The position numbers and the translations under genes were made by a program. Below the pieces are notes generated by a model. The model was not told where the DNA came from. It worked only from the letters and a program-made list of their open reading frames with translations, and made no database searches. A DNA stretch of 22,711 bases from positions 1 to 22,711 of the IMG/VR virus record IMGVR_UViG_3300031603_000032; one strand, given 5' to 3'. This DNA is from a virus. Shown piece by piece: positions 3,783-22,711 of the stretch; the first letter of the stretch is position 1; each line of letters begins with the position of its first letter.

Positions 3783-5000
3783 TTATCTTCCAATTTCTGA
3801 AAAGTATTTAGCTTTGAAATCAACCCAACTCATCCCAATTCCCTGGATGTAGAACAAATGTTCCGGCTTTAGCCTACCCTCTGAATGTAACTTCTTATAA
3901 CGATTGATAGCTTTCTTTTTCCACCAATTATTAATATACGGAATCCCATCTACGAACTTCTTTTTCATTACTAATTCAGATTCTTCAATTTCATCTCGTA
4001 AGAACGCCTGACCGTTGTCGTACATCATTGCCAAATACACGCCCCTGGCGAAACCATGATGGTATGCTGCTTGTTTGATACCACATTCTTTGAAAATCTT
4101 ACTAAGAATCTTTTGTTTGATACCACTTACAGGCCCGCCTTGTCCTGCAGGTAATCCCATACTTATACCATTACGAATACGTTCGTTGATGATTGCTTCT
4201 TCATACCACTCAGAATGTTCTTCTTTAATATGCTGATGCCATGGTTCGTAAAACTTATCATCAGGTTTCAACGAAATCTTTCCTGCTGATTCACCTAATG
4301 TTTTAAAGTGAGGTATCCCATTGTATTGAGAATGAACCCCATATAATGATGTTGTACCAACTGCGATTAACGTTTGTCCGTATTTAGTTTTCCAATAATC
4401 TCGTACTTCAGGAACAGTAGTCATCATAGCGACTAATTTCCCACCTAAGAAATTATACCCTAATGGTTGAGTACAAACAATAGTAGAAGCGATTGTAGTA
4501 TGATTCAGTTTTCCTTTTTTAAACTTATCATCCTTAGTCCACCCAATGTAGTTATCTCTAACTGCCATTGAAGTTACATCCGATGCCAATGATATTTGTC
4601 CTAAGAGTTTACCACTCTTTCTATCCTTAACATTGATTTTAACGTTACGACCAGGGTTTGCTGTAAAGTCCATTGAATGAATCATTCTACGAGCATATGT
4701 CCACTTAATGGTATCTTTGGGATCATCAATGATTTCAACATAAGGTTCTAACTCTTCAATCTCTTTGATAGTTTGTTCCAAATTGTTAATATCGGCTGGT
4801 TTCCATTGGGTATCATACATTGATGCTATTTGTGATTTATCTCTAATCATCTTAGTATCTTGTAATTCTATCCACTTTTTATATAGAACCTGCTCTTGTA
4901 CAGACATTTCAGCGAGATAATCCATATTCTGAATTAATGCTACTTTCTGTGTTTCAAAATCAAATTCCGGCTTATCCGGTGTTGTATCCCAAAAATCCAT
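3783..5000 (-). CDS. DruA-like (DUF4338-type) protein
   Basis: A 405-residue protein whose middle part resembles the DUF4338/DruA family, named after a component of the Druantia anti-phage system. Landmarks in the family order are GKLLGQISLASDV, then AVRDNYIGWT (about 148-157), KLNHTTIASTIVC, GGKLVAMM, WKTKYGQTLIAVGTTSLYG and IPHFKTLGESAGKI. The N-terminal 100 residues are acidic and helical; the C-terminal 130 are basic (VMKKKFVDGIPYINNWWKKK) and could bind nucleic acid. The biochemical role of DruA proteins is not settled as far as I know. The gene sits between the sliding clamp and the clamp loader, so a function in replication or in counter-defence can be imagined, but neither is shown. 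No other Druantia genes are present. The match is by motif order only. Confidence 0.6.
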   Translation of the reverse strand: MDFWDTTPDKPEFDFETQKVALIQNMDYLAEMSVQEQVLYKKWIELQDTKMIRDKSQIASMYDTQWKPADINNLEQTIKEIEELEPYVEIIDDPKDTIKWTYARRMIHSMDFTANPGRNVKINVKDRKSGKLLGQISLASDVTSMAVRDNYIGWTKDDKFKKGKLNHTTIASTIVCTQPLGYNFLGGKLVAMMTTVPEVRDYWKTKYGQTLIAVGTTSLYGVHSQYNGIPHFKTLGESAGKISLKPDDKFYEPWHQHIKEEHSEWYEEAIINERIRNGISMGLPAGQGGPVSGIKQKILSKIFKECGIKQAAYHHGFARGVYLAMMYDNGQAFLRDEIEESELVMKKKFVDGIPYINNWWKKKAINRYKKLHSEGRLKPEHLFYIQGIGMSWVDFKAKYFSEIGR

Positions 5001-5042
5001 ACTTATTTATTTTTAATTGTTTACGTTGGTGTTATTTTATCT

Positions 5043-5738
5043 CTACTTAATTTCCACGAGAAAATAATTTGAAACTAAACCATCTCTTTCGAACTTAACA
5101 TGTGCTAATCCAGCTGATGCTATTTTCAAAGTTGCTGATTTAGAACCTTTATTTGCGTTTAATATCTCTTTTAGATATTTTGCTGAGAATGATATTGGTT
5201 TGATATCCGTATCACATTTACAATCTACATTCATAGAGATTCTATTTGTGTTAATTGTTGAATAACCCAATACAACTTCACCTTTGCCGCCTGTACAAGT
5301 AAATGTAAATGTATCCGATTCGTTAAGTGCTCCTTTAGATTTAACAAATCTACTCGTAAACTCATCATCTAATGTAATGTCAGCATCGAATGGTGGAACT
5401 TGCTTTAAATCCGGAACTACAGGAATAACTGATAAATCTGCTAACATATAGTTTACAGATGTTCCTTTATCTGAAAATGTAAGATGTGATTTGTGTGCTT
5501 TAACATCTAAGTTAGATTCTACTACACCTAATAGTGCTTTCATTTGAGATGTGGTATAAATACCAAATTCTCCGTTCGGGAATCCACTTTCTGCGGATAC
5601 TACCGTTCCTAATAGTGTTTTATCATCTGAGATAAAACTTACTTTCATTGAATCATCAGTTGATTCAATCTTTACTGATTCTACTTCGCCACCTAAGTTG
5701 TAACGATTGATGAATTGTTCAATACTTGCTTTTTTCAT
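5043..5738 (-). CDS. 45: Sliding clamp, T4 gp45-like
   Basis: A 231-residue protein, close to the 228 of T4 gp45, the trimeric clamp that tethers the polymerase and activates late transcription in T4. Overall beta-rich composition, two-domain size and the C-terminal strand pair (AGLAHVKFERDGLVSNYFLVEIK region, like the AAKFEGEHANYVVALE end of T4 gp45) support the call. Sequence identity in this family is low, so position also counts. It lies directly downstream of the polymerase gene and in the same unit as the clamp loader gp44, with the DruA-like gene between. A strong promoter (5772-5803) sits 34 bases upstream of its ATG, so the clamp can be made independently of the polymerase. Confidence 0.85.
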   Translation of the reverse strand: MKKASIEQFINRYNLGGEVESVKIESTDDSMKVSFISDDKTLLGTVVSAESGFPNGEFGIYTTSQMKALLGVVESNLDVKAHKSHLTFSDKGTSVNYMLADLSVIPVVPDLKQVPPFDADITLDDEFTSRFVKSKGALNESDTFTFTCTGGKGEVVLGYSTINTNRISMNVDCKCDTDIKPISFSAKYLKEILNANKGSKSATLKIASAGLAHVKFERDGLVSNYFLVEIK

Positions 5739-5765
5739 GCTTTAAAATTTATTGTTTATTGTTTA

Positions 5766-5819
5766 TTTATACAAATATACGAATTCTTTTCCGAATATCC
5801 TAATTTATTTACGTTTATT
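5766..5819 (-). repeat. 54-nt promoter-containing repeat, copy 2
   Basis: This is the second copy of the block at 2763-2816, with four mismatches, all within the -33/-7 spacer. The 16 bases upstream of the -33 box are identical in the two copies. Confidence 0.85.
5772..5803 (-). promoter_or_regulatory. Bacteroidota-type promoter for the sliding clamp unit
   Basis: TTAG (5800-5803) and TATATTTG (5772-5779) are separated by exactly 20 bases on the minus strand. It lies in the gap between the polymerase stop codon (5834) and the clamp start (5738), giving a leader of about 27 bases. Confidence 0.8.
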
Positions 5820-5833
5820 TTCAGGGTGTTTGA

Positions 5834-8530
5834 TTAAAATGAAAAGAATTGCCCTATCTTTTCTAAGTTTGGATTTGGGTTCTCCCAATTCATGGCGGAA
5901 TAGAAATCATCCAATTTATTCTTTAGTTCACGTTCCCATAATTTATCATAATCGATGTACTGCTCTACTAAATCTAATATCTCCTTCGGATCATTATATC
6001 CAGTTAATCCAACGGTTTCTAATCCTAATGGATTGTTCTTCAAATACACATACTTTATTTTATCACCATCTTTCATTGGTTCATATTTAAACCCCGCCTT
6101 ATAGTAATCCAATAGTTGATTATATGTGATTGCTGCTTTTACGTGTGCTGGTGTACCTTTCATAAACTGCCCCATTACTTGAGTAGCTGATGTGTACTTA
6201 CTAATATCCTTAATTGCTGAGTTTTTAGCTATATCAACTGTATTGACATTAACCATATTATCTTTGTAATCCAAAATCTTACCATCAAGTGTAAGTTTAT
6301 CCTCTGCTTTTAGGATATCCCATAATACAGTTGACATTACTTCTTTAAAGTATGTTGGAAATGAACTACGTTTTACATCTAAACCTTTTACATCTAACTT
6401 ATCACAGTTTACTGAATTATCATTGATAATCCATTGTGCGTATCTTTTCTTTGATACCCAAAAACCACCTTTTGCGATAGTCTCTTGCTTTATATCAAAT
6501 CTATGATTAGTTACATTAAACATCTTAGCTGCCATAGGAGTGTACATATTATTTATATGATCTTGTACTTCCTTTGCTACTGATAGAATTGCAGGAATCA
6601 TCTGTGCATCATCATTTACATCAATTTCAGGATTCCTAACTTTAACTAATGGTTCTGCTTGATAAAAGACTGAATCTGTATCAACATAAATGTTGTAATC
6701 CTTATCTTCACCTGTAATTTTACTGTAATATTGATTTGCAATTAACTCAGTAGTTTTAATTACAGCTTGACCTGTAAGTGTAGTAGCTTCTGCGTTTTTA
6801 ATGTTATAAAATCTGAACGATTCTAATCCCATAACACCATATAATGAGTTCAGCATAATCTTTTGTACTAACTGTCGTTGATGATAGAATTTATATTTAT
6901 CATCATCACCAGCTTTTCCGTATTTCTTCATCTCATCTTTATACTCAACACGCTTATCAAACCACACATTAAGAATCTCCGGTATTACACCCACACTACT
7001 TTGGTCGTACATTGTACCATTTGCAGCCACACTTATATTCATTTCCTTAATGAAATCATCGAATGTTTCCCTATCCATTGGTTTTGATATATTACCATGC
7101 ACATCTGTTATTTCAAACTTAGGGATTTCGTTTTTCATATACCTATCCGTTGAGTAGTTGGTAATATTACCAATCTGCGTTTCGGGTGATATATTAATAC
7201 TTATAATAATCATTGGATATAATGATGTTAAATCCAAATCATAAACCCATTTATAAAGTCCTGGAATTGGTGCTTTTACATATGCACCTTCAAAATCTAG
7301 TTTAATTAGATAGGTAGATACCATATCAAATGGTATTGGATTCTTTAATATAAACGAATTGGTGCTGAAATCAATATCATCATACTCAAGTGAAACCTTA
7401 GATGATTTCGTTTTGAATATTTTTAACTTACCCGAACGGGGTGTTAATGATGGTAGTGAATTAACATATAATTTAGTTTCACCGGCTCTACCCGATGTTA
7501 TTTTCATTGATATTCTATCAGGTTTGTTCGGAGCTACTCTACCACTTCTACGTAAGAATGTTAACATTGCACCCTCTAACCATTTTGATGAGAATAGGAA
7601 ATCTTCATAGAACACATGCCCCGTATGGCATATTGCCCTTGCTAAATCAATATATTGTAGCTTCGCATCCATATCAACGATTAATTCAACATCCACTAAA
7701 TTGTATTCAATGAATTTCTCTAAATCATCTCTGAATAGTTGATCTAAATTTCCATCATATTCAATTTTACCTCTACCTAATGTCATACGAGCGATAGTGT
7801 CTAATCTATAATTCGGATGTTCAGTATATGTAAAGTTTTTGAATAGAGCCATATAATCTAATGCAGATACTCCGGCTATGATATAACGTTGTCTGTATTT
7901 ATTCCAATGTACTTTCTGTATTGGTGATAATCTGTTTGCGTTTTTTCTACCTAACAAGCGTTTCATTCTATTGTACAGATATGTAACATCAAAGAAATCA
8001 ATATTCCACCCAGTAATAATAGTAGGTGATATTTCTTCCCATTTGTTTAAGAATGCTGATAACATATCTTCTTCACTTTGGAACGAACGAACCATAGCAC
8101 CTTTGATAGTTTTATTGATTTCTGCACCTGGATTTATAACATATACATAATAATCATTTGTTACTGAATCATGGAATGCTACTGAAGTCATTGCGTTTTC
8201 AGCTTCGGTAACATCTGGTAGGCCTGAATTCATTTCTACCTCTATATCAAATGTTAATACAACATTTCCTTTGGAAACTTCATCTGAATCTCCATATTCA
8301 TCAATTAGGAAACGAGTTATCTCATTTACATCAGATTCATATAATTTCAGTTTATCTTCACGATTCCAATAATCTATTTTCTTTAATCTTTCACCGTATA
8401 TCGATTCATATGAACCGTTACCATCTTGCACATATGCATAGTTTCTATACTTCTTTGTGAAGTAACCTTTTTGATCATCCCAACAATGGATAATATTCGC
8501 CTCTTTTTCAAAATATACATTTTGGTACAT
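5834..8530 (-). CDS. 43: Family B DNA polymerase, T4 gp43-like
   Basis: The replicative polymerase with 3'-5' proofreading, 898 residues, the same length as T4 gp43. Exonuclease motifs are FDIEVEM (94-100, Asp95/Glu97), GWNIDFFDVTYL (174-185) and YNLVDVELI (276-284). Polymerase motifs are DLDLTSLYP (431-439, motif A), KIMLNSLYG (557-565, motif B), YVDTDS (615-620, motif C with both catalytic aspartates) and KKRYA (694-698). The last residues, EKIGQFFSF, resemble the hydrophobic C-terminal clamp-binding peptide of T4 gp43. All catalytic residues are intact, so it should be active. The 43-base gap upstream holds a -7-like TATATTTA (8556-8563) without a clear -33 box, so it may also be read through from the upstream gene. 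Confidence 0.98.
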   Translation of the reverse strand: MYQNVYFEKEANIIHCWDDQKGYFTKKYRNYAYVQDGNGSYESIYGERLKKIDYWNREDKLKLYESDVNEITRFLIDEYGDSDEVSKGNVVLTFDIEVEMNSGLPDVTEAENAMTSVAFHDSVTNDYYVYVINPGAEINKTIKGAMVRSFQSEEDMLSAFLNKWEEISPTIITGWNIDFFDVTYLYNRMKRLLGRKNANRLSPIQKVHWNKYRQRYIIAGVSALDYMALFKNFTYTEHPNYRLDTIARMTLGRGKIEYDGNLDQLFRDDLEKFIEYNLVDVELIVDMDAKLQYIDLARAICHTGHVFYEDFLFSSKWLEGAMLTFLRRSGRVAPNKPDRISMKITSGRAGETKLYVNSLPSLTPRSGKLKIFKTKSSKVSLEYDDIDFSTNSFILKNPIPFDMVSTYLIKLDFEGAYVKAPIPGLYKWVYDLDLTSLYPMIIISINISPETQIGNITNYSTDRYMKNEIPKFEITDVHGNISKPMDRETFDDFIKEMNISVAANGTMYDQSSVGVIPEILNVWFDKRVEYKDEMKKYGKAGDDDKYKFYHQRQLVQKIMLNSLYGVMGLESFRFYNIKNAEATTLTGQAVIKTTELIANQYYSKITGEDKDYNIYVDTDSVFYQAEPLVKVRNPEIDVNDDAQMIPAILSVAKEVQDHINNMYTPMAAKMFNVTNHRFDIKQETIAKGGFWVSKKRYAQWIINDNSVNCDKLDVKGLDVKRSSFPTYFKEVMSTVLWDILKAEDKLTLDGKILDYKDNMVNVNTVDIAKNSAIKDISKYTSATQVMGQFMKGTPAHVKAAITYNQLLDYYKAGFKYEPMKDGDKIKYVYLKNNPLGLETVGLTGYNDPKEILDLVEQYIDYDKLWERELKNKLDDFYSAMNWENPNPNLEKIGQFFSF

Positions 8531-8555
8531 AACTTCTTTTTTTGTTTTTCAATGT

Positions 8556-8563
8556 TAAATATA
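8556..8563 (-). promoter_or_regulatory. 43: Possible -7 box upstream of gene 43
   Basis: TATATTTA on the minus strand preceded by GTTG, as in the better promoters of this window, ends about 25 bases upstream of the polymerase ATG. No TTNG box occurs 20 bases further upstream (the bases there read AAAG), so this is at best a weak or activator-dependent promoter. Confidence 0.35.
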
Positions 8564-8573
8564 CAACTTTATT

Positions 8574-8981
8574 TTATTTAAAGCTTTCACCTGTTTTTAA
8601 ATAATTAAAATTAGTAATGAATTCACTCATACTCCCAACAGTTCCAATGCAGAAACTACGACCATCTAACTGACGAACTTTATCGAAATTATATCGGTAA
8701 GCTTTTGATTTCATCCAATCATGTTTCTCACGTAGATACACTACATATGATTTTTGTTTAGTTTTATCACTAACCGATTTTAACAATCCCCGAACAAAAC
8801 TTACTTCTCCAAATTTACTGGGAGACATACGGAATATAATATTAAGTGATTCACCCACATATATATCAGAATTAGATTGTAATAATTTGAAGCCACCTGT
8901 TTTCATAATAGGTGAAATTATAGTTTTCATTAATTCTTTCTTTGCTTTTACATCCTCTTTGGGATTTCCTGATTTTATCAT
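8574..8981 (-). CDS. Unrecognised 135-residue protein upstream of gene 43
   Basis: I do not recognise the family. The product is basic, with an N-terminal helix (KEDVKAKKELMKTIISPIMK), a central beta-rich part (YVGESLNIIFRMS; SYVVYLREKHDW) and an aromatic C-terminal segment (FITNFNYLKTGESF). A single cysteine is present; there is no signal peptide or membrane segment. It lies 27 bases after the stop of the GIY-YIG-like gene and 43 bases before gene 43, so it is probably co-transcribed with one or both. The reading frame is intact and non-overlapping, which supports it as a real gene. Confidence 0.7.
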   Translation of the reverse strand: MIKSGNPKEDVKAKKELMKTIISPIMKTGGFKLLQSNSDIYVGESLNIIFRMSPSKFGEVSFVRGLLKSVSDKTKQKSYVVYLREKHDWMKSKAYRYNFDKVRQLDGRSFCIGTVGSMSEFITNFNYLKTGESFK

Positions 8982-9008
8982 AACTTTTTATTTTTTATTT
9001 TTTAATTA

Positions 9009-10256
9009 TTAGTATTTATCCATAAATTCAAAATTAACCCAACCTATTTGGTAGTGGTCTAATAATGATTTCATTACATTGTCTGCAGCTGTATTTCCTC
9101 TTTTATTCCAAGATGAGATATCTCTATAAGATGCGAAGTGTACCAATATTCCAATGTTTCCAAATTTCTGAACATTACTATTACCCCTTCCCTCATTTGC
9201 TACTAACTCCTTTAGTATATCCTCATATCTAATAATCGATGATGAAAAACAAAACCACTTAGTTTTACTCAGTTTACTTTGAAGAACTTCTACTTTTGCT
9301 TTAGTTTTATGCTTATTAGATTTCTGAGAATATCGTATAAGTGGTACAAGTTGAAGTGAAGCACCTTGGTCAATCTGTGCAATTGCTTCATTTATAACCG
9401 ATTTATATTCCTTTGAGTTGAACTTCAATATATCACAGATGTATTCTCTATTAGATTCATCTTTAATTGGTCTATTAAGATTTCGGTACGCTTCCATCAC
9501 ATACATAACTGCATCAGGAGTGTTAGTTGGACTGGTTGGTTTTTCTGGTTTTGGATTTAGAGCCAATCCCAATGCTCTCCTATCACTGTCATTAAAGGTT
9601 GAAACTCTACTCCATGGGATAACTTTATACTTCAATTTAGTACCATGCTTTGAATCTATGGTAGCTTGTGCTGTAGTACTTCCATTTATTAATCTACATA
9701 ACCCATTCGAATCCTCTATTAGAATTAACGGATTAGTGTTTGAGGTATCACCCTTATCATCAATTAATGTTTCAATAGTTTTGGTGAATGAAGGATCACT
9801 AGCGTTTATTCTAACCTGAATACCATTATCAAGTAATTTCTGTATCCCTTCGATATCTAATTCATCATCTTGCAACCATATATCACTAGCGATATCTGTA
9901 CAGATGGATGAAATCAGTTGGTTTTTAGATGCCGAATAAGCATCACCACCATTGGTTAAATTGTACCAAAGATCACTCTTTGATGCATCTCCTGTCTTTA
10001 ATTCCTTACGTTCATAGTTTGATACTTCATCTAAAGTTCCATAAAACGTTACAAAATATTCCCATTGATGTTTCATATTTTGAAAGTCATCAATCATTTT
10101 TGGATTTTGTGATGAGTGATGATATCCATCATTCACATATCCCTTATGTTTTCCACCATACATTTTGTTGGTTGTCGTATTCTTCCACATATAGTAGAAG
10201 GCTGCATATCCTCCAGCTGGTGCTGGGGTAATATGACTTTTAGTTAAATTTGCCAT
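9009..10256 (-). CDS. Divergent GIY-YIG-like protein with an unknown C-terminal region
   Basis: A 415-residue protein. Residues 18-110 look like a divergent GIY-YIG domain: AFYYMWKNTTTNKMYGGKHKG (19-39) in place of the GIY and YIG strands, a helix with Trp65 leading to FVTFYGTLDEVSNYERKEL (68-86, Glu82 or Glu85 as candidate metal-binding glutamate) and LWYNLTNGGDAY (96-107), the common closing motif of phage members. YGG replaces YIG, and the usual arginine after it is not obvious, so activity is uncertain. Residues 110-415 are not recognised; they include a Pro/Thr linker (about 236-247) and a basic region near 310-325. The gene has its own promoter (10323-10354) with a leader of about 60 bases. 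It could be a homing endonuclease, or a domesticated nuclease attacking host or competitor DNA. Confidence 0.6.
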   Translation of the reverse strand: MANLTKSHITPAPAGGYAAFYYMWKNTTTNKMYGGKHKGYVNDGYHHSSQNPKMIDDFQNMKHQWEYFVTFYGTLDEVSNYERKELKTGDASKSDLWYNLTNGGDAYSASKNQLISSICTDIASDIWLQDDELDIEGIQKLLDNGIQVRINASDPSFTKTIETLIDDKGDTSNTNPLILIEDSNGLCRLINGSTTAQATIDSKHGTKLKYKVIPWSRVSTFNDSDRRALGLALNPKPEKPTSPTNTPDAVMYVMEAYRNLNRPIKDESNREYICDILKFNSKEYKSVINEAIAQIDQGASLQLVPLIRYSQKSNKHKTKAKVEVLQSKLSKTKWFCFSSSIIRYEDILKELVANEGRGNSNVQKFGNIGILVHFASYRDISSWNKRGNTAADNVMKSLLDHYQIGWVNFEFMDKY

Positions 10257-17729: not shown

Positions 17730-18521
17730 TTAGTTGTTAAATAAATCATCAAATGCATCTTTCACATTAGCTACTTTAGCTGATGGAGTTGTTGATGCTG
17801 ATGTGTTTTGTGTAGGTGTTTGTGGTTTCTGTGCGGGTGCACTTTCTGCTTCTGCAGAATCTCCAACTTGCCCAGTTTCCATCCATGTTTCTAATAAACC
17901 TTTCATATCATCATATGAATGTTTTTTGAACATTCCAGGTAACTCAATCTGGTCTTTTACCATTGTCAACACATTCTTATCTTCTGAGATAGATGTTTGA
18001 TTTGGTTTAACTCTGATATAAGTTTCAGGGTAGTTTTTACCTAATTCTTTTGCTGTTTTGAATTCTACGGTGATATCTCTCCCACTCATTGGGTCAGTTA
18101 AATCTCCATAATCCGGGTCAGCGAAGAATGCAAGTAGTTCTTGGTAAACTGTTTTACCGAATCCCCAAAATTTAACTCCCTCTGATTCTTCACCACGAAC
18201 CAATACTGGAACGTAAGTTCTCATCTTAGGTGTTAATTGTTTTGATAAATTCCAATCATTTCTATCGCCTGTTGCTTTAAGTTGATTAGCGAACTCCACT
18301 AAAGGGTCAGCCTCACCAAAGGTTTGAGGTGAAAGAAGATTCTTACCACCAAATCCATAGTGAAAGAATAATTCAATAAAAGGGTTGGATTCGTTGTGCG
18401 TATAAGGAACTATCCTTACTTGCTGTTTGCCTGGTTTAGGTTTCCACAGATTATCTGTTTTCGTTACCTTTGTCTGTAGACTGTCTAGTCTGTTGCGGAT
18501 TGCATCTAAATCGATTGCCAT
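17730..18521 (-). CDS. 32: Single-stranded DNA-binding protein, T4 gp32-like
   Basis: Coats single-stranded DNA and organises the replication and recombination machinery. At 263 residues it is a little shorter than T4 gp32 (301). Supporting features are the N-terminal basic/aromatic stretch (NLWKPKPGKQQVRIVPY, 24-40), aromatic OB-fold segments (ELFFHYGFGGKN; VKFWGFGKTVYQELLAFFADPDYGDLTDP), a long Ala/Pro/Thr/Gln linker and a short acidic-aromatic C-terminus (KDAFDDLFNN), as in T4 gp32, where that tail binds partner proteins. The protein contains no cysteine, so the zinc site of T4 gp32 (three Cys and one His) is absent. It is followed by uvsX after 13 bases and preceded by a structured leader with two promoters. 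Confidence 0.88.
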   Translation of the reverse strand: MAIDLDAIRNRLDSLQTKVTKTDNLWKPKPGKQQVRIVPYTHNESNPFIELFFHYGFGGKNLLSPQTFGEADPLVEFANQLKATGDRNDWNLSKQLTPKMRTYVPVLVRGEESEGVKFWGFGKTVYQELLAFFADPDYGDLTDPMSGRDITVEFKTAKELGKNYPETYIRVKPNQTSISEDKNVLTMVKDQIELPGMFKKHSYDDMKGLLETWMETGQVGDSAEAESAPAQKPQTPTQNTSASTTPSAKVANVKDAFDDLFNN

Positions 18522-18769: not shown

Positions 18770-18780
18770 CCTTTCTGTAT

Positions 18781-18798
18781 ATTTTATTCTTTTATTTA
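18781..18798 (-). repeat. 18-bp repeat at the end of the first tagged gene
   Basis: ATTTTATTCTTTTATTTA (plus strand) is identical to 19181-19198. Each copy overlaps the stop codon of one of the two tagged genes, but at a different offset. It marks the 3' boundary of what looks like a duplicated or exchangeable gene cassette. Confidence 0.7.
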
Positions 18799-19157
18799 AT
18801 TAGCTTCGTAATTATGCTTATCATTTTTTTCATATGTGAATCGTAATTTGGTAAGCCACCTTCATATTCATTAGAATCTGTTGAATATTTATCTAATGCA
18901 TTTATGATGTTTGCCGCTAATTTATTTAAGTTAGATTCACTTTTAGCTAATTTTCCAATTACATTTACCATTTTTGTCATATGTGCACCATGAGTTGACA
19001 AACCGTATGTGTATTCATCCACATCTCCAGCATATTTATCTAATGCGTTTATGATGCTTTTAGATTGGTTATCAGATATACTGATGCTTTCGTTTAGATT
19101 TCTTAATGCTTTGATTTGCTTATCCATTAAGATTCTGTGTTCGTTTATGTTTGCCAT
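18792..19157 (-). CDS. Possible internal head protein with shared N-terminal tag (121 residues)
   Basis: The function is not recognised. The first 15 residues (MANINEHRILMDKQI) differ from those of the next gene upstream (19196-19585) at one position, and the shared region ends in LNE (residues 21-23) followed by Ser. This resembles the L-x-E cleavage motif of the T4 prohead protease, which removes capsid-targeting leaders from internal proteins. The body is an internal tandem duplication: residues about 32-72 and 81-121 match at roughly 21 of 41 positions, both containing IINALDKY, EY, GL, HM and K-M. The repeats look helical. A good Shine-Dalgarno (AAGGA) lies 7 bases before the ATG. If the targeting idea holds, the product would be packaged with the DNA and injected; this is inference. 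Confidence 0.7.
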   Translation of the reverse strand: MANINEHRILMDKQIKALRNLNESISISDNQSKSIINALDKYAGDVDEYTYGLSTHGAHMTKMVNVIGKLAKSESNLNKLAANIINALDKYSTDSNEYEGGLPNYDSHMKKMISIITKLIK

Positions 19158-19186
19158 AATTTATTCCTTTTTTTGTTTTTATTTTA
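19114..19186 (-). repeat. Shared 5' leader and tag-coding repeat, copy 1
   Basis: These 73 bases are almost identical to 19542-19613: one substitution and one extra T in a T run. The block covers the upstream A-rich leader, the ribosome-binding site, the ATG and the first 15 codons, then similarity stops sharply. Conservation of the non-coding part shows recent duplication or gene conversion, not only selection on the peptide. Confidence 0.9.
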
Positions 19187-19198
19187 TTCTTTTATTTA
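19181..19198 (-). repeat. 18-bp repeat at the end of the second tagged gene
   Basis: The second copy of the sequence at 18781-18798. It overlaps the stop codon of the 129-residue tagged gene and abuts the 73-base leader repeat of the other tagged gene. Confidence 0.7.
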
Positions 19199-19585
19199 GT
19201 AAGCGAATGCCCCTTTGTGCTTTTTAGCCATTTTCATAGCGGCTTTCATTGCAGTAGCTTCATCTTTGATATCACTAAATCCGAATTCGAATTCGTTAGC
19301 CCATATTTTCATACCTTTCTTAGCTCTTAATGTTACAACCCAATAACCATCCATATCCTCTTCAACATCTAATGTGTTTTTTCCACCGGGTGTACTGAAT
19401 CCTGTGATGACCGATACTCTACCATTTTTTTTAGTTTTGTGTTCGATTTCACCACCGATGATATTTTCTAAATCTTTCATTAGTCTGTTACCGTTACCGG
19501 ATGACATTCCCATTCCTTCATTTACTGTTTTAAATGATGCAATTTGCTTATCCATTAAGATTCTGTTTTCGTTTATGTTTGCCAT
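19196..19585 (-). CDS. Possible internal head protein with shared N-terminal tag (129 residues)
   Basis: The function is not recognised. It shares the N-terminal tag with the neighbouring gene (MANINENRILMDKQI here), and the tag region ends in VNE (21-23) followed by Gly, close to a T4-type prohead-protease site. Beyond the tag the two proteins are unrelated. The body has a beta-rich middle (GRVSVITGFSTPGG; MDGYWVVTLRAKKGMKIW) and a lysine/alanine-rich helix near the C-terminus (EATAMKAAMKMAKKHKG), giving a compact basic protein of about 100 residues after removal of the tag. The same Shine-Dalgarno and leader precede it. Small basic proteins behind a common targeting leader match the pattern of T4 internal proteins IPI-IPIII, but no sequence similarity to those is claimed. 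Confidence 0.7.
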   Translation of the reverse strand: MANINENRILMDKQIASFKTVNEGMGMSSGNGNRLMKDLENIIGGEIEHKTKKNGRVSVITGFSTPGGKNTLDVEEDMDGYWVVTLRAKKGMKIWANEFEFGFSDIKDEATAMKAAMKMAKKHKGAFAY

Positions 19586-19613
19586 AATTTATTCCTTTTT
19601 TGTTTTTATTTTA
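19542..19613 (-). repeat. Shared 5' leader and tag-coding repeat, copy 2
   Basis: The second copy (72 bases) of the block at 19114-19186, covering the leader, ribosome-binding site and first 15 codons of the 129-residue tagged gene. Confidence 0.9.
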
Positions 19614-19641
19614 AGTGTGTATTAATAAGTATTAAGTTATT

Positions 19642-20031
19642 TTAGATAACATCAACTATTCTGAATAGACGTGTTTTCATTATCTTATAGGTATCACCAT
19701 CGGTTAATACCATTGAATTTTTGTAATTTTGCCAATCAACCTGATATGATTTATCCATTGTTCCACCGTTTAAGTCTACTATCAAACTATTTAAAGCGTT
19801 AATAGTGTACATAGTGTTACTTTCTTTCTTACGATGTACCATTATAGTACTTGGTAAGAATTTAGTGGTTCTATCTGGTATTATATTATAACTTATCACC
19901 AACTCTTTGGAAGGGTCTAGCTTTAATATAAATATCTTTCTGCTGAATATCTCATATCTTTCAAATACTTTTGCAAGTAAATCTTCGAAAGATGCCTCAT
20001 CTGTAAATGTACATAGTAGTTGTGTACGCAT
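19642..20031 (-). CDS. Unrecognised 129-residue protein
   Basis: No function can be assigned. The sequence is well ordered, with alternating strands and helices: MRTQLLCTFTDEASFEDLLAK at the N-terminus, IFILKLDPSKELVISYNI, STIMVHRKKESNTMYTINAL in the middle and MVLTDGDTYKIMKTRLFRI at the end. It has no membrane segment and one cysteine. It starts 15 bases after the stop of the large 753-residue gene, so it is probably co-transcribed with it. The compact fold-like composition suggests a conserved phage family, but I cannot name it. Confidence 0.75.
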   Translation of the reverse strand: MRTQLLCTFTDEASFEDLLAKVFERYEIFSRKIFILKLDPSKELVISYNIIPDRTTKFLPSTIMVHRKKESNTMYTINALNSLIVDLNGGTMDKSYQVDWQNYKNSMVLTDGDTYKIMKTRLFRIVDVI

Positions 20032-20046
20032 TCATCTCTCCTGTAT

Positions 20047-22308
20047 TTATCCGTTCTTTAAGCACTTTTGTAAATCTTTACCAAAATTACCTAAAAGTGA
20101 ATTTACACCCACACCCTTAGTTCTATATTGTTCACTTCCAATCTCAATAACCTTACCGTTCTCATTATTATTGAATGTCAATGATTGATTTTTTGATGAC
20201 ATTTGCATAGTTTTTCTTAGATGTGCCATAAGTTGCTTCTTCCCATCAATCGAATCTAAATCACCACTATATCCAGATAAATTAGATATACAATTTCGTA
20301 TCATTTTCGAATTAACAGTCTTACCATCTACATTCATATCACCAATATCCTCTTCTTCCCCCATTATGTATCTATCCCAATGCATTTGCTTCATATATGA
20401 TTCAATATATGCCTGCTTATGTGGTCCGTTGAGTGGTGGTTGTGGTGGGTTCGGTGCGTTTTCTTTTTGGTATTTTTTGTCTGATATATCTAAATCGGTT
20501 ACAATTTGCGTATGTGCCTGTGTCATTGCATCTCGGCTACCATCACCTATCGGTAAAACCCAATCCAGCTCTGGTGATAACAATGCATTTAATGAATCGG
20601 AATCAAATGGGGTGGAATCACTATTCTTATATCCATTTAAAGTTTCCAATGTTTTTTGCTTTATCTCATCATCGGATAATGTGGGATTTTTATCTCTAAT
20701 TCTACTATGAACTTCTCGTGCTAACTTAACGTTATCGGAAAGTTTAACTATCATTTTATTTACACTTGTCGTTGTATCACCTGCTTTAGATACATCTATT
20801 ACCGCTCCCGCTATATCATCATCGGAATATGGTGGTTGAATCCCAGCTCCTTCTAAAACTTTAATTACCTTTTTACCAATACCAGCATTGTTGGAGATTT
20901 CTTCTTTAATTTTAGCTAAATAATTAGTTCTACCCTTTGAACCTGCGCCAAAGTTTTTAAATTGATTACCCAATTTATGTTTTTTTGAAAATTCAAAGGA
21001 ATCACTTACGTTTCCTTGCACCGTTCCACTCGGTCCCTTTGATGCTAGCTTGATATTCCCTGCTGCAGTTTGGATTATAGTATCAATACTACCTATTATT
21101 TCATTAGATTTTACTTCACTTAAATTATATTCATCTGCGATAATAGGTAGTATTGATTTCATCACTTTACCACGCTGATTAACCGTAGTATTAAATACCG
21201 GGTCCCCGAATTTCTTTTTATTTGAAGTGTGCTTGAACCCAATATAACCTTCGGTGGTTTCATATAAAATACCCGTATCAGTATCCTTCCGCTTCTGAAT
21301 GAAGTTTAGTTGCCTTTTATAGTGAGTAATGGCCTTCTTATCATTACCTGATGTAGCTTCTATTATTTTTTGTTTAAATACATCTATTAATTTTGCCTTT
21401 GCACTTCCAGAATTGTTAACCGGATCCATAACACCAATTGGGTATGGTTTACTTTGGGGGTTCTTAAATCTATATTTTTCATTACTTCGTAATTCACCCA
21501 CTTCGCTCCGGCCCGTTTTATATGCGACCTTTAACCAATCTTTTATACCAACCTCTGTCATTCCTTTACTAATTGGGGAATCCCTAACTTCATTATAATT
21601 TTTACCAATAAAGTCATCTTCAGATAATTCCGATTCATAAAAATCCTCAACGGCTACACTGCCATACATTTCACCGACCGCTGATCCACCTGTTCCCGGT
21701 GGTGATTTATCACCTGATAATATTTCACCCATTTCGCCTGAAAATGATTTAATTATTTCTTCTGCAGAAGGGGTGTTTGTTGTTGAAGTATCCTTTTCAG
21801 CACCAGTCCTACCGTTAGCGAAATCTTTTCCAATAGTATCTGCTTTTGTTGCAGGTTCTGCTGTTGGTGGAGTTTCCTCCTTTTCTGGCACCGAGCCATC
21901 TAATTCAGTATGTGTACCTGCAGCAATTCCTGCATCTTTGTTTTCTTGAGATTTAAAATCTGTTTTCAATCCACTTGCAATGTTTATAGCTGTATAAGCA
22001 CTATCTTCATTTAATTCACCATCATCTTCAGTTTCTTCCTCATCATAATCAGGATGTATTTTTGCTGATACTGCTGTTTGATTTTTACCAACTTTGATTC
22101 CGGAATCGTGATCTCCATGTAAAACAAAGTTAGTAGGTGTTTTATTAACACTCTCTACTATATAATCTATAAATTCACTATCTAATTCGAAATCTTCCCT
22201 CAAAATTGTTTTAAGGGCTTTAATAGCTACTTCTGATTTAGGGTTTTTTAATTCAGTTCCTGCTTCAACCCACCATAACCGTATAATCTCTTTAAGGAAA
22301 TCTTTCAT
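20047..22308 (-). CDS. Large unrecognised protein (753 residues), possibly virion-associated
   Basis: I do not recognise this family. Residues 1-55 are helical (MKDFLKEIIRLWWVEAG). Residues about 85-225 are low-complexity, acidic and rich in Glu, Thr, Gly, Pro and Ser, and are probably disordered. From about 245 the protein becomes basic and ordered, with charged helices (AKAKLIDVFKQKIIEATSGN), Gly/Lys/Asn-rich loops and a C-terminal domain (after about 620) that follows a Pro/Asn-rich linker. I see no transmembrane segment, signal peptide or catalytic motif. The length, disorder and lack of an enzyme signature suggest a structural, scaffold or injected protein, but this is a guess. It starts 5 bases after the stop of the polymerase A-like gene, and its codon use looks like that of the neighbours. 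Confidence 0.8.
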   Translation of the reverse strand: MKDFLKEIIRLWWVEAGTELKNPKSEVAIKALKTILREDFELDSEFIDYIVESVNKTPTNFVLHGDHDSGIKVGKNQTAVSAKIHPDYDEEETEDDGELNEDSAYTAINIASGLKTDFKSQENKDAGIAAGTHTELDGSVPEKEETPPTAEPATKADTIGKDFANGRTGAEKDTSTTNTPSAEEIIKSFSGEMGEILSGDKSPPGTGGSAVGEMYGSVAVEDFYESELSEDDFIGKNYNEVRDSPISKGMTEVGIKDWLKVAYKTGRSEVGELRSNEKYRFKNPQSKPYPIGVMDPVNNSGSAKAKLIDVFKQKIIEATSGNDKKAITHYKRQLNFIQKRKDTDTGILYETTEGYIGFKHTSNKKKFGDPVFNTTVNQRGKVMKSILPIIADEYNLSEVKSNEIIGSIDTIIQTAAGNIKLASKGPSGTVQGNVSDSFEFSKKHKLGNQFKNFGAGSKGRTNYLAKIKEEISNNAGIGKKVIKVLEGAGIQPPYSDDDIAGAVIDVSKAGDTTTSVNKMIVKLSDNVKLAREVHSRIRDKNPTLSDDEIKQKTLETLNGYKNSDSTPFDSDSLNALLSPELDWVLPIGDGSRDAMTQAHTQIVTDLDISDKKYQKENAPNPPQPPLNGPHKQAYIESYMKQMHWDRYIMGEEEDIGDMNVDGKTVNSKMIRNCISNLSGYSGDLDSIDGKKQLMAHLRKTMQMSSKNQSLTFNNNENGKVIEIGSEQYRTKGVGVNSLLGNFGKDLQKCLKNG

Positions 22309-22313
22309 ATTGC

Positions 22314-22711
22314 TTACTTTTTACTGTTTATATCAACGGAAACCATATCTGAATACGTTATTCCGATTTCTACCTTTGATGGGAATCCATTCCCTTCTAT
22401 AAGTAGTTTTAAATCTTTTATTAACCCAATTTCTGTAGGGTGTATGTCCAATAAATATGAATCATAAGTGTATAACACCATTTTAGACTTCATATCTTTT
22501 AAATACTCCATCATTTTTTTAAGTATCACCATATTCAACTCAGTTTCAGTTGCCTGTAAAACATAATTAAATAGTTTATTAGCGTTCATATCATTTAAAT
22601 TCGTTTTAAGGAGCTTTCTTCCCATTGGGGTTGTTATATACCCATTACGTGTGAACTCCATCCACAACCTATCTATTTTGTGTGATACATTCTTAAATAA
22701 AGGTATATGTA
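22314..22711 (-). CDS. Family A DNA polymerase-like protein, C-terminal part (cut by window edge)
   Basis: The reading frame is open to the right edge, so only the last 131 or so residues are visible. They match the end of a Pol I-type palm and fingers. RNGYITTPMGRKLL corresponds to the GYVETLFGRRR segment, NYVLQATETELNMVILKKMM to the NxPIQGTAADIIKLAM helix, and VLYTYDSYLLDIHP to motif C (VHDELVFE in Pol I). The catalytic aspartate is kept, but the flanking His and Glu of the HDE triad are Tyr and Ser. The phage also has a full family B polymerase, so this is a second, possibly specialised or inactive polymerase. An in-frame TTG at 22667 is not a credible start because the match continues upstream of it. 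Whether the protein includes an exonuclease domain cannot be seen. Confidence 0.78.
   Translation of the reverse strand, partial: HIPLFKNVSHKIDRLWMEFTRNGYITTPMGRKLLKTNLNDMNANKLFNYVLQATETELNMVILKKMMEYLKDMKSKMVLYTYDSYLLDIHPTEIGLIKDLKLLIEGNGFPSKVEIGITYSDMVSVDINSKK

Follow-up and report, generated by a model that had tools for sequence, protein, structure and literature searches.

The window analyzed here is a whole virus contig of 22.7 kb. It carries a T4-like replication module that includes a UvsX-like recombinase and a gp32-like single-strand DNA-binding protein (SSB). It also holds a C-terminal piece of a family A DNA polymerase (22314-22667), and on the same contig an 898-aa gene (5834-8530) has the look of a family B polymerase. 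Inside the replication module lie two small genes, A and B, which share a nearly identical N-terminal leader, hereafter the tag. Both are on the minus strand, and gene B is transcribed first. In order of transcription, the features of the locus are:

19642..20031, minus strand: conserved 129-aa gene (MRTQLLC...), the left border of the slot in transcription order
19625..19634, minus strand: late-type promoter-like motif TAATACTTAT, 40-49 nt upstream of gene B
19542..19613, minus strand: shared DNA block, gene B copy (leader DNA, ribosome-binding site and first codons; blastn)
19196..19585, minus strand: tagged gene B, 129 aa, a 23-aa leader MANINENRILMDKQIASFKTVNE and a 106-aa body
19517..19585, minus strand: gene B leader, codons 1-23, ending in VNE, with a predicted cut before G24
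19172..19204, minus strand: 3' repeat at the end of gene B, family D16, overlapping the leader DNA of gene A
19114..19186, minus strand: shared DNA block, gene A copy (blastn against the gene B copy)
18792..19157, minus strand: tagged gene A, 121 aa, a leader MANINEHRILMDKQIKALRNLNE and a 98-aa body
19089..19157, minus strand: gene A leader, codons 1-23, ending in LNE, with a predicted cut before S24
18772..18804, minus strand: 3' repeat at the end of gene A, family D16
17730..18521, minus strand: gp32-like SSB gene, the right border of the slot (Pfam gp32, E 3e-14; PHROG 1192)

The original prediction described two unrelated small proteins behind a common N-terminus, and the locus bears this out. 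By blastn, the shared block is identical at 71 of 73 nt (E 1.4e-31), with the single substitution and single indel that had been reported, and blastp finds no similarity between the bodies of gene A and gene B. Both leaders are 23 residues long and end where they were said to end, at VNE|G in gene B and LNE|S in gene A. The repeat claimed for the 3' ends is also real. It spans 33 nt with 85% identity between copies (blastn E 1.3e-6), contains an exact A+T-rich core of ~19 nt, and in both genes lies over the last codons and downstream of the stop.

Family libraries returned only marginal matches to the bodies. Gene B belongs to no Pfam, PHROGs, NCBIfam or PADLOC family, and no relative of the whole gene A protein was found among viral contigs; the gene A body contains an internal repeat (IINALDKY...). 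The structure models of gene B (pLDDT 54.6) and gene A (helical, pLDDT 48.7) are too weak for fold assignment. At this low confidence, the gene B model has a leader helix at residues 3-22, a loop and then an alpha-beta5-alpha domain. Foldseek found nothing at E <= 0.001, and VIA-align matches stayed at the level of common arrangement; the absence of the T4 IPI* fold among the matches listed carries no weight.

The tagged set comprises 12 proteins with ~8 unrelated bodies. In related contigs, all of them lie in the slot between the 129-aa gene, which keeps the same place in the relatives examined, and the gp32-like SSB gene. The eight bodies counted are the B-type, A, L010-type, L166, G014, L195, L189a and L189b bodies (pairwise blastp E > 0.1). 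The tag has the consensus MANINENRxLMxxQI... and a length of 23-26 residues. Besides genes A and B, the tagged genes are:

L003/L004: MANLNENRRLMEAQIKSLRNINE then ALGM, body as in gene B
L005-L009: MANLEENRKLMMEQIKSFKSLNE then SGNH
L010: MANINENRKLMIEQIARAKAELNE then GTKY
L162 and L192: body as in L010
L166: MANINENRKLMVENMKRVRAQLSE then SAIK
G014/L163/L168: MANIQKNRKLMVEQMGSIRKLLTE then YGTM
L195: MANIEQNRKLMVEQMKTLKQPKLIKE then GKLT
L189, a second tandem pair with a diverged tag: MSIKQNRDLMVENIKKVRTQLNE then HISW, and MSIKQNRKLLIENIKKMRSLKE then FSKS

Relatives therefore do carry the tag on different bodies, as had been anticipated. The expectation of a tagged set distributed over the genome did not hold: the tag is restricted to a single slot, where a phage has one or two such genes. 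When a tag profile was run over 9,286 ORFs, including those of the 100-kb G001 and 175-kb G014 contigs, no tagged ORF was found outside the slot.

The content of the slot varies. In many relatives, the more distant ones among them, it is empty or holds other genes. The gene B body has orthologues in L004 (84% identity) and L005 (82%). L166 and L004 have much the same slot neighbors (129-aa gene and SSB) and different bodies; on this sequence comparison, cargo has been exchanged behind a retained leader type. In L005, an 81-residue module lies between the tag (LNE|S) and the gene-B body, and the module ends with LSE|G at the start of that body. The module is thus inserted at the predicted cut site, with such sites flanking it on both sides. 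In each of its two contigs, the G014-type gene breaks off at a stop that follows residue 69, and this interrupted gene is probably a decayed cassette. Its stop is an in-frame TGA (L144:1545-1754 in G014; L163, L168), past which the open frame continues for ~73 codons.

Upstream of the slot lies a 753-aa gene (window 20047-22308; L137:16838-19051) in which the N-terminal MKDFLKEI..WW is kept and the C-terminal parts are exchangeable. The G012 version of this gene has several internal LxE|[SAG] sites (LNEGLSDFF, LNEAKKPS).

The shared block could be a recombination handle and nothing else, with repeats that favor gene swapping or doubling and a common N-terminus that is a functionless by-product. 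The near-identical DNA of genes A and B and the 3' repeats at both genes are what such a handle would leave, as is the second tandem pair in L189, whose leader DNA is 78% identical. However, between phages the silent sites of the tag have drifted and the peptide has been kept (pS 0.50, pN 0.23), which argues against a mere handle. Moreover, conservation extends as far as a specific [LIV]xE site and no further, and the insertion at the L005 junction is left unexplained. We regard this reading as quite unlikely.

The junction itself is highly regular. The tag ends in [LIV]xE in 12 of 12 tagged proteins, directly before the body, and homology stops at that E. The residue that follows is S, A or G in nine proteins and Y, H or F in the other three. 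We compared protein classes for [LIV]xE|[SAG] within the first 40 residues. The site is present in 57 of the 60 distinct N-termini of gp23 (12.8 expected by shuffling), 37/41 of gp21 (4.7 expected), 40/45 of gp22 (8.6 expected) and seven of eight tags (1.0 expected), and in replication proteins it is at chance level (8/108, 8.6 expected); members of a class are related and the trials are not independent, so it is the contrast between classes that counts. Over all N-termini of a genome, the excess of [LIV]xE[AGS] is slight and is informative only when compared by protein class. The gp21 sites are mostly INES and LNES, and N is often the P2 residue in gp21, gp23 and the tags of this lineage. V at P3, as in the VNE|G of gene B, also occurs at the gp23 capsid site VKE|A, near T4 LTE65|A in the alignment.

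If the tag is cut at this site, then a gp21-type prohead protease should be present, and the original prediction had called for one. Of 22 related records, 18 encode such a protease (PF03420; E 1e-26 to 1e-38), and its gene lies shortly upstream of gp22 and gp23. The 22 records are those in which the capsid protein of G001 (L011:2378-4024; PHROG major head protein, E 4e-75) has a relative. The Peptidase S77 (gp21) match is above the curated cut-off with the H/S/D motifs conserved, and alignment with T4 gp21 shows conservation of GEL(D/N)HP, SSRG and a later D. The protease is therefore present in the lineage, and in one case, G014, gp21, gp22, gp23 and a tagged gene are on the same contig. PF03420 had no match in the window or in the first eight tagged records, since these contigs stop short of the part of the head module where it would lie; G001, a 100-kb relative, starts just past the expected place of gp21. 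The window contig is without head genes, and we infer its protease from relatives.

The intergenic regions of G001 and G012 (L011 and L136) contain two cleanly separate classes of promoter-like motif, TTCGTATATTTG at replication genes and ATATTTATA at virion genes. The second lies ~30-45 nt upstream of the virion genes and is a candidate late promoter of these phages. Within the 100 nt before the gene, its core, ATAYTTAT, occurs at 8 of 10 lead tagged genes and 19 of 38 virion genes, but at only 4 of 83 replication genes; with body families merged, p = 4e-4, for a core that was relaxed after the tagged genes had been seen. When scored by a matrix that was trained on virion genes, strong motifs (10.8-13.5 bits) are limited to the L010 family. 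The gene B motif is weak by this score (5.0 bits, p = 0.12), and the late motif is absent upstream of the lead tagged genes of L166 and L189. L004 and L005 have an early-type motif as well, ~40 nt upstream. By their motifs, the tagged genes may be expressed late. Elsewhere in the window, a probable GIY-YIG homing endonuclease gene, recognized by eye (450-1112), has a strong late-type motif upstream (12.3 bits), unlike its neighbors.

The tag could instead be an uncut docking helix that acts during DNA replication and brings accessory proteins to a complex, for example gp32 and the replisome or the host RNA polymerase. The tagged genes lie inside the replication module, beside gp32, and the early-type motif of L004 and L005 would suit such a role. 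Set against this is the late core at most lead tagged genes, and replication proteins lack the N-terminal excess of [LIV]xE|[SAG] that tags and head proteins share. T4 ip genes, too, are found among non-structural genes: ipII and ipIII, our positive control, are adjacent between denV and e. We consider a docking helix unlikely.

Body charge and the cut site bear on another alternative, in which the tagged proteins help to build the prohead as scaffold or minor core components (like gp67 and gp68), recruited by the tag and cut, and are not delivered as effectors. Their site is the same as that of core proteins, and body pI is mixed. It ranges from 4.9 to 9.8 and is not uniformly basic, with only the gene-B body alone and the L010 family on the basic side. 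However, a slot that is so often empty or otherwise filled indicates that the genes are dispensable, and, unlike assembly factors, they exchange whole bodies between close relatives. This makes a scaffold or core role very improbable.

Judged by the major capsid protein, the lineage has its closest cultured relatives in Microcystis phage Mel-JY01 (59.7%), Flavobacterium phage immuto (55.7%) and Rhodothermus phage RM378 (36.7%). Together with the Bacteroidota-like promoter motif TTCGTATATTTG, these capsid relatives make Bacteroidota the likely host of the lineage. In the same slot, immuto gene 3 (QQO91921.1; L173:1803-2318) starts with MENFDLKKFLVENRLTYNSKLINE then GQAL, so that its N-terminus ends in LINE|G. 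The slot genes of Mel-JY01 (L172:4253-4585 and 4598-5884) start with MKNENKNDFVSDTEYVINELKKMFKETARINE then GAID and with MQFKQYILGE then SSLS, ending in RINE|G and LGE|S. The leaders of immuto and Mel-JY01 differ in sequence and end alike.

MQFKQYILGES of Mel-JY01 looks close to the T4 capsid-targeting sequence (CTS), MKTYQEFIAEA. T4-CTS-like gene starts also occur in a cluster of G001 (L015:5790-6392, 7244-9322 and 5035-5793) and in its orthologues in G009, G012 and G019. These starts are MKKSEFISE..., MNLKEFIQ(S/N/T)E... and MKLKELILE|GMYDK, one of them with a HAD-like FDFDDT motif right after the leader. The genes of this cluster are candidates for further internal proteins.

Taken together, the presence of the tag on different bodies in relatives, gp21 in the lineage and a junction that matches head proteins make a leader removed by the prohead protease the best explanation. 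We give a probability of about 0.7 to the reading that the tag serves as a capsid-targeting leader in the manner of T4 internal proteins, with cargo that is packaged, trimmed and delivered. Tagged proteins would be made late, and their leader, a predicted helix, would recruit them into the prohead scaffold. The gp21-type protease would cut after the [LIV]xE at the leader end at the same time as it processes gp21, gp22 and gp23; once free, the body would remain in the head and enter the next host with the DNA. The slot beside the gp32 gene would serve as an exchange site, where bodies are swapped, doubled or lost between close relatives while the leader stays functionally constant. For the capsid-targeting leader originally predicted, the tag on different bodies, the protease and the shared cut site all speak in favor at the level of the lineage, which supports that prediction in part. 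Encapsidation, cleavage and injection of the tagged proteins are what these sequences lead us to expect, and an anti-defense function of the bodies is suggested by analogy.

A larger claim is possible, and we put it forward tentatively. T4-like phages, probably of Bacteroidota, may possess a modular delivery cassette with a leader unrelated to that of T4, at least eight new injected proteins, a two-cargo chain that is cut twice, and cargos that inhibit immediate host defenses. If so, the T4 principle of cargo that is addressed and then trimmed would exist with a different address in a large uncultured marine T4-like group. The tag and cut site would then offer a sequence handle for injected phage proteins, and hence for candidate anti-defense proteins, useful in hosts where no injected or anti-defense proteins are known. 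The tag would also be a second natural packaging signal to set beside that of T4. Our search of open-access papers turned up none that describes a leader of this kind in Bacteroidota or marine T4-like phages.

The internal proteins of T4 are a varied group with only the CTS in common (PMC3012670; PMC9026906). By itself the CTS is enough to package foreign proteins, and gp21 removes it (PMC9026906). Of these proteins, IPI* inhibits the GmrSD nuclease (PMC3012670) and IPIII is required for infecting strain ECOR17 (PMC9391042). The tagged set differs from this system in several respects. The T4 leader (MKTYQEFIAE; 10-19 residues, against 23-26 for the tag) shows no resemblance to the tag by eye, in agreement with the original prediction that the peptides differ. 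The tagged genes adjoin gp32, unlike T4 internal-protein genes; V is allowed at P3; N is often found at P2, unlike in T4 gp21 substrates; one tagged chain (L005) has two bodies; and the bodies are not all basic. For want of leader homology, as judged by inspection, and of uniformly basic bodies, we do not file the tagged proteins as members of the T4 internal-protein family. In phiKZ and SPN3US, the paralogous inner-head proteins gp53 and gp54 have their first 15 residues in common, together with a protease motif (PMC5694885). These ejection proteins, unlike the tags, belong to giant phages with another protease family branch and motif and mostly long propeptides. The likeness to T4 lies in the arrangement. 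As with IPI, IPII and IPIII, a short N-terminal leader is common to unrelated small proteins with diverse and dispensable bodies, and it ends at what is, by sequence, a gp21-type (L/I)xE site. The lineage also has the Peptidase S77 protease and, in gp21, gp22 and gp23, the same [LIV]xE|[SAG] head-protein sites as the T4 substrates. T4 ipII and ipIII resemble genes A and B in layout: they are neighbors, their leader DNA and CTS codons are 80% identical over 121 nt, and the bodies that follow are unrelated.
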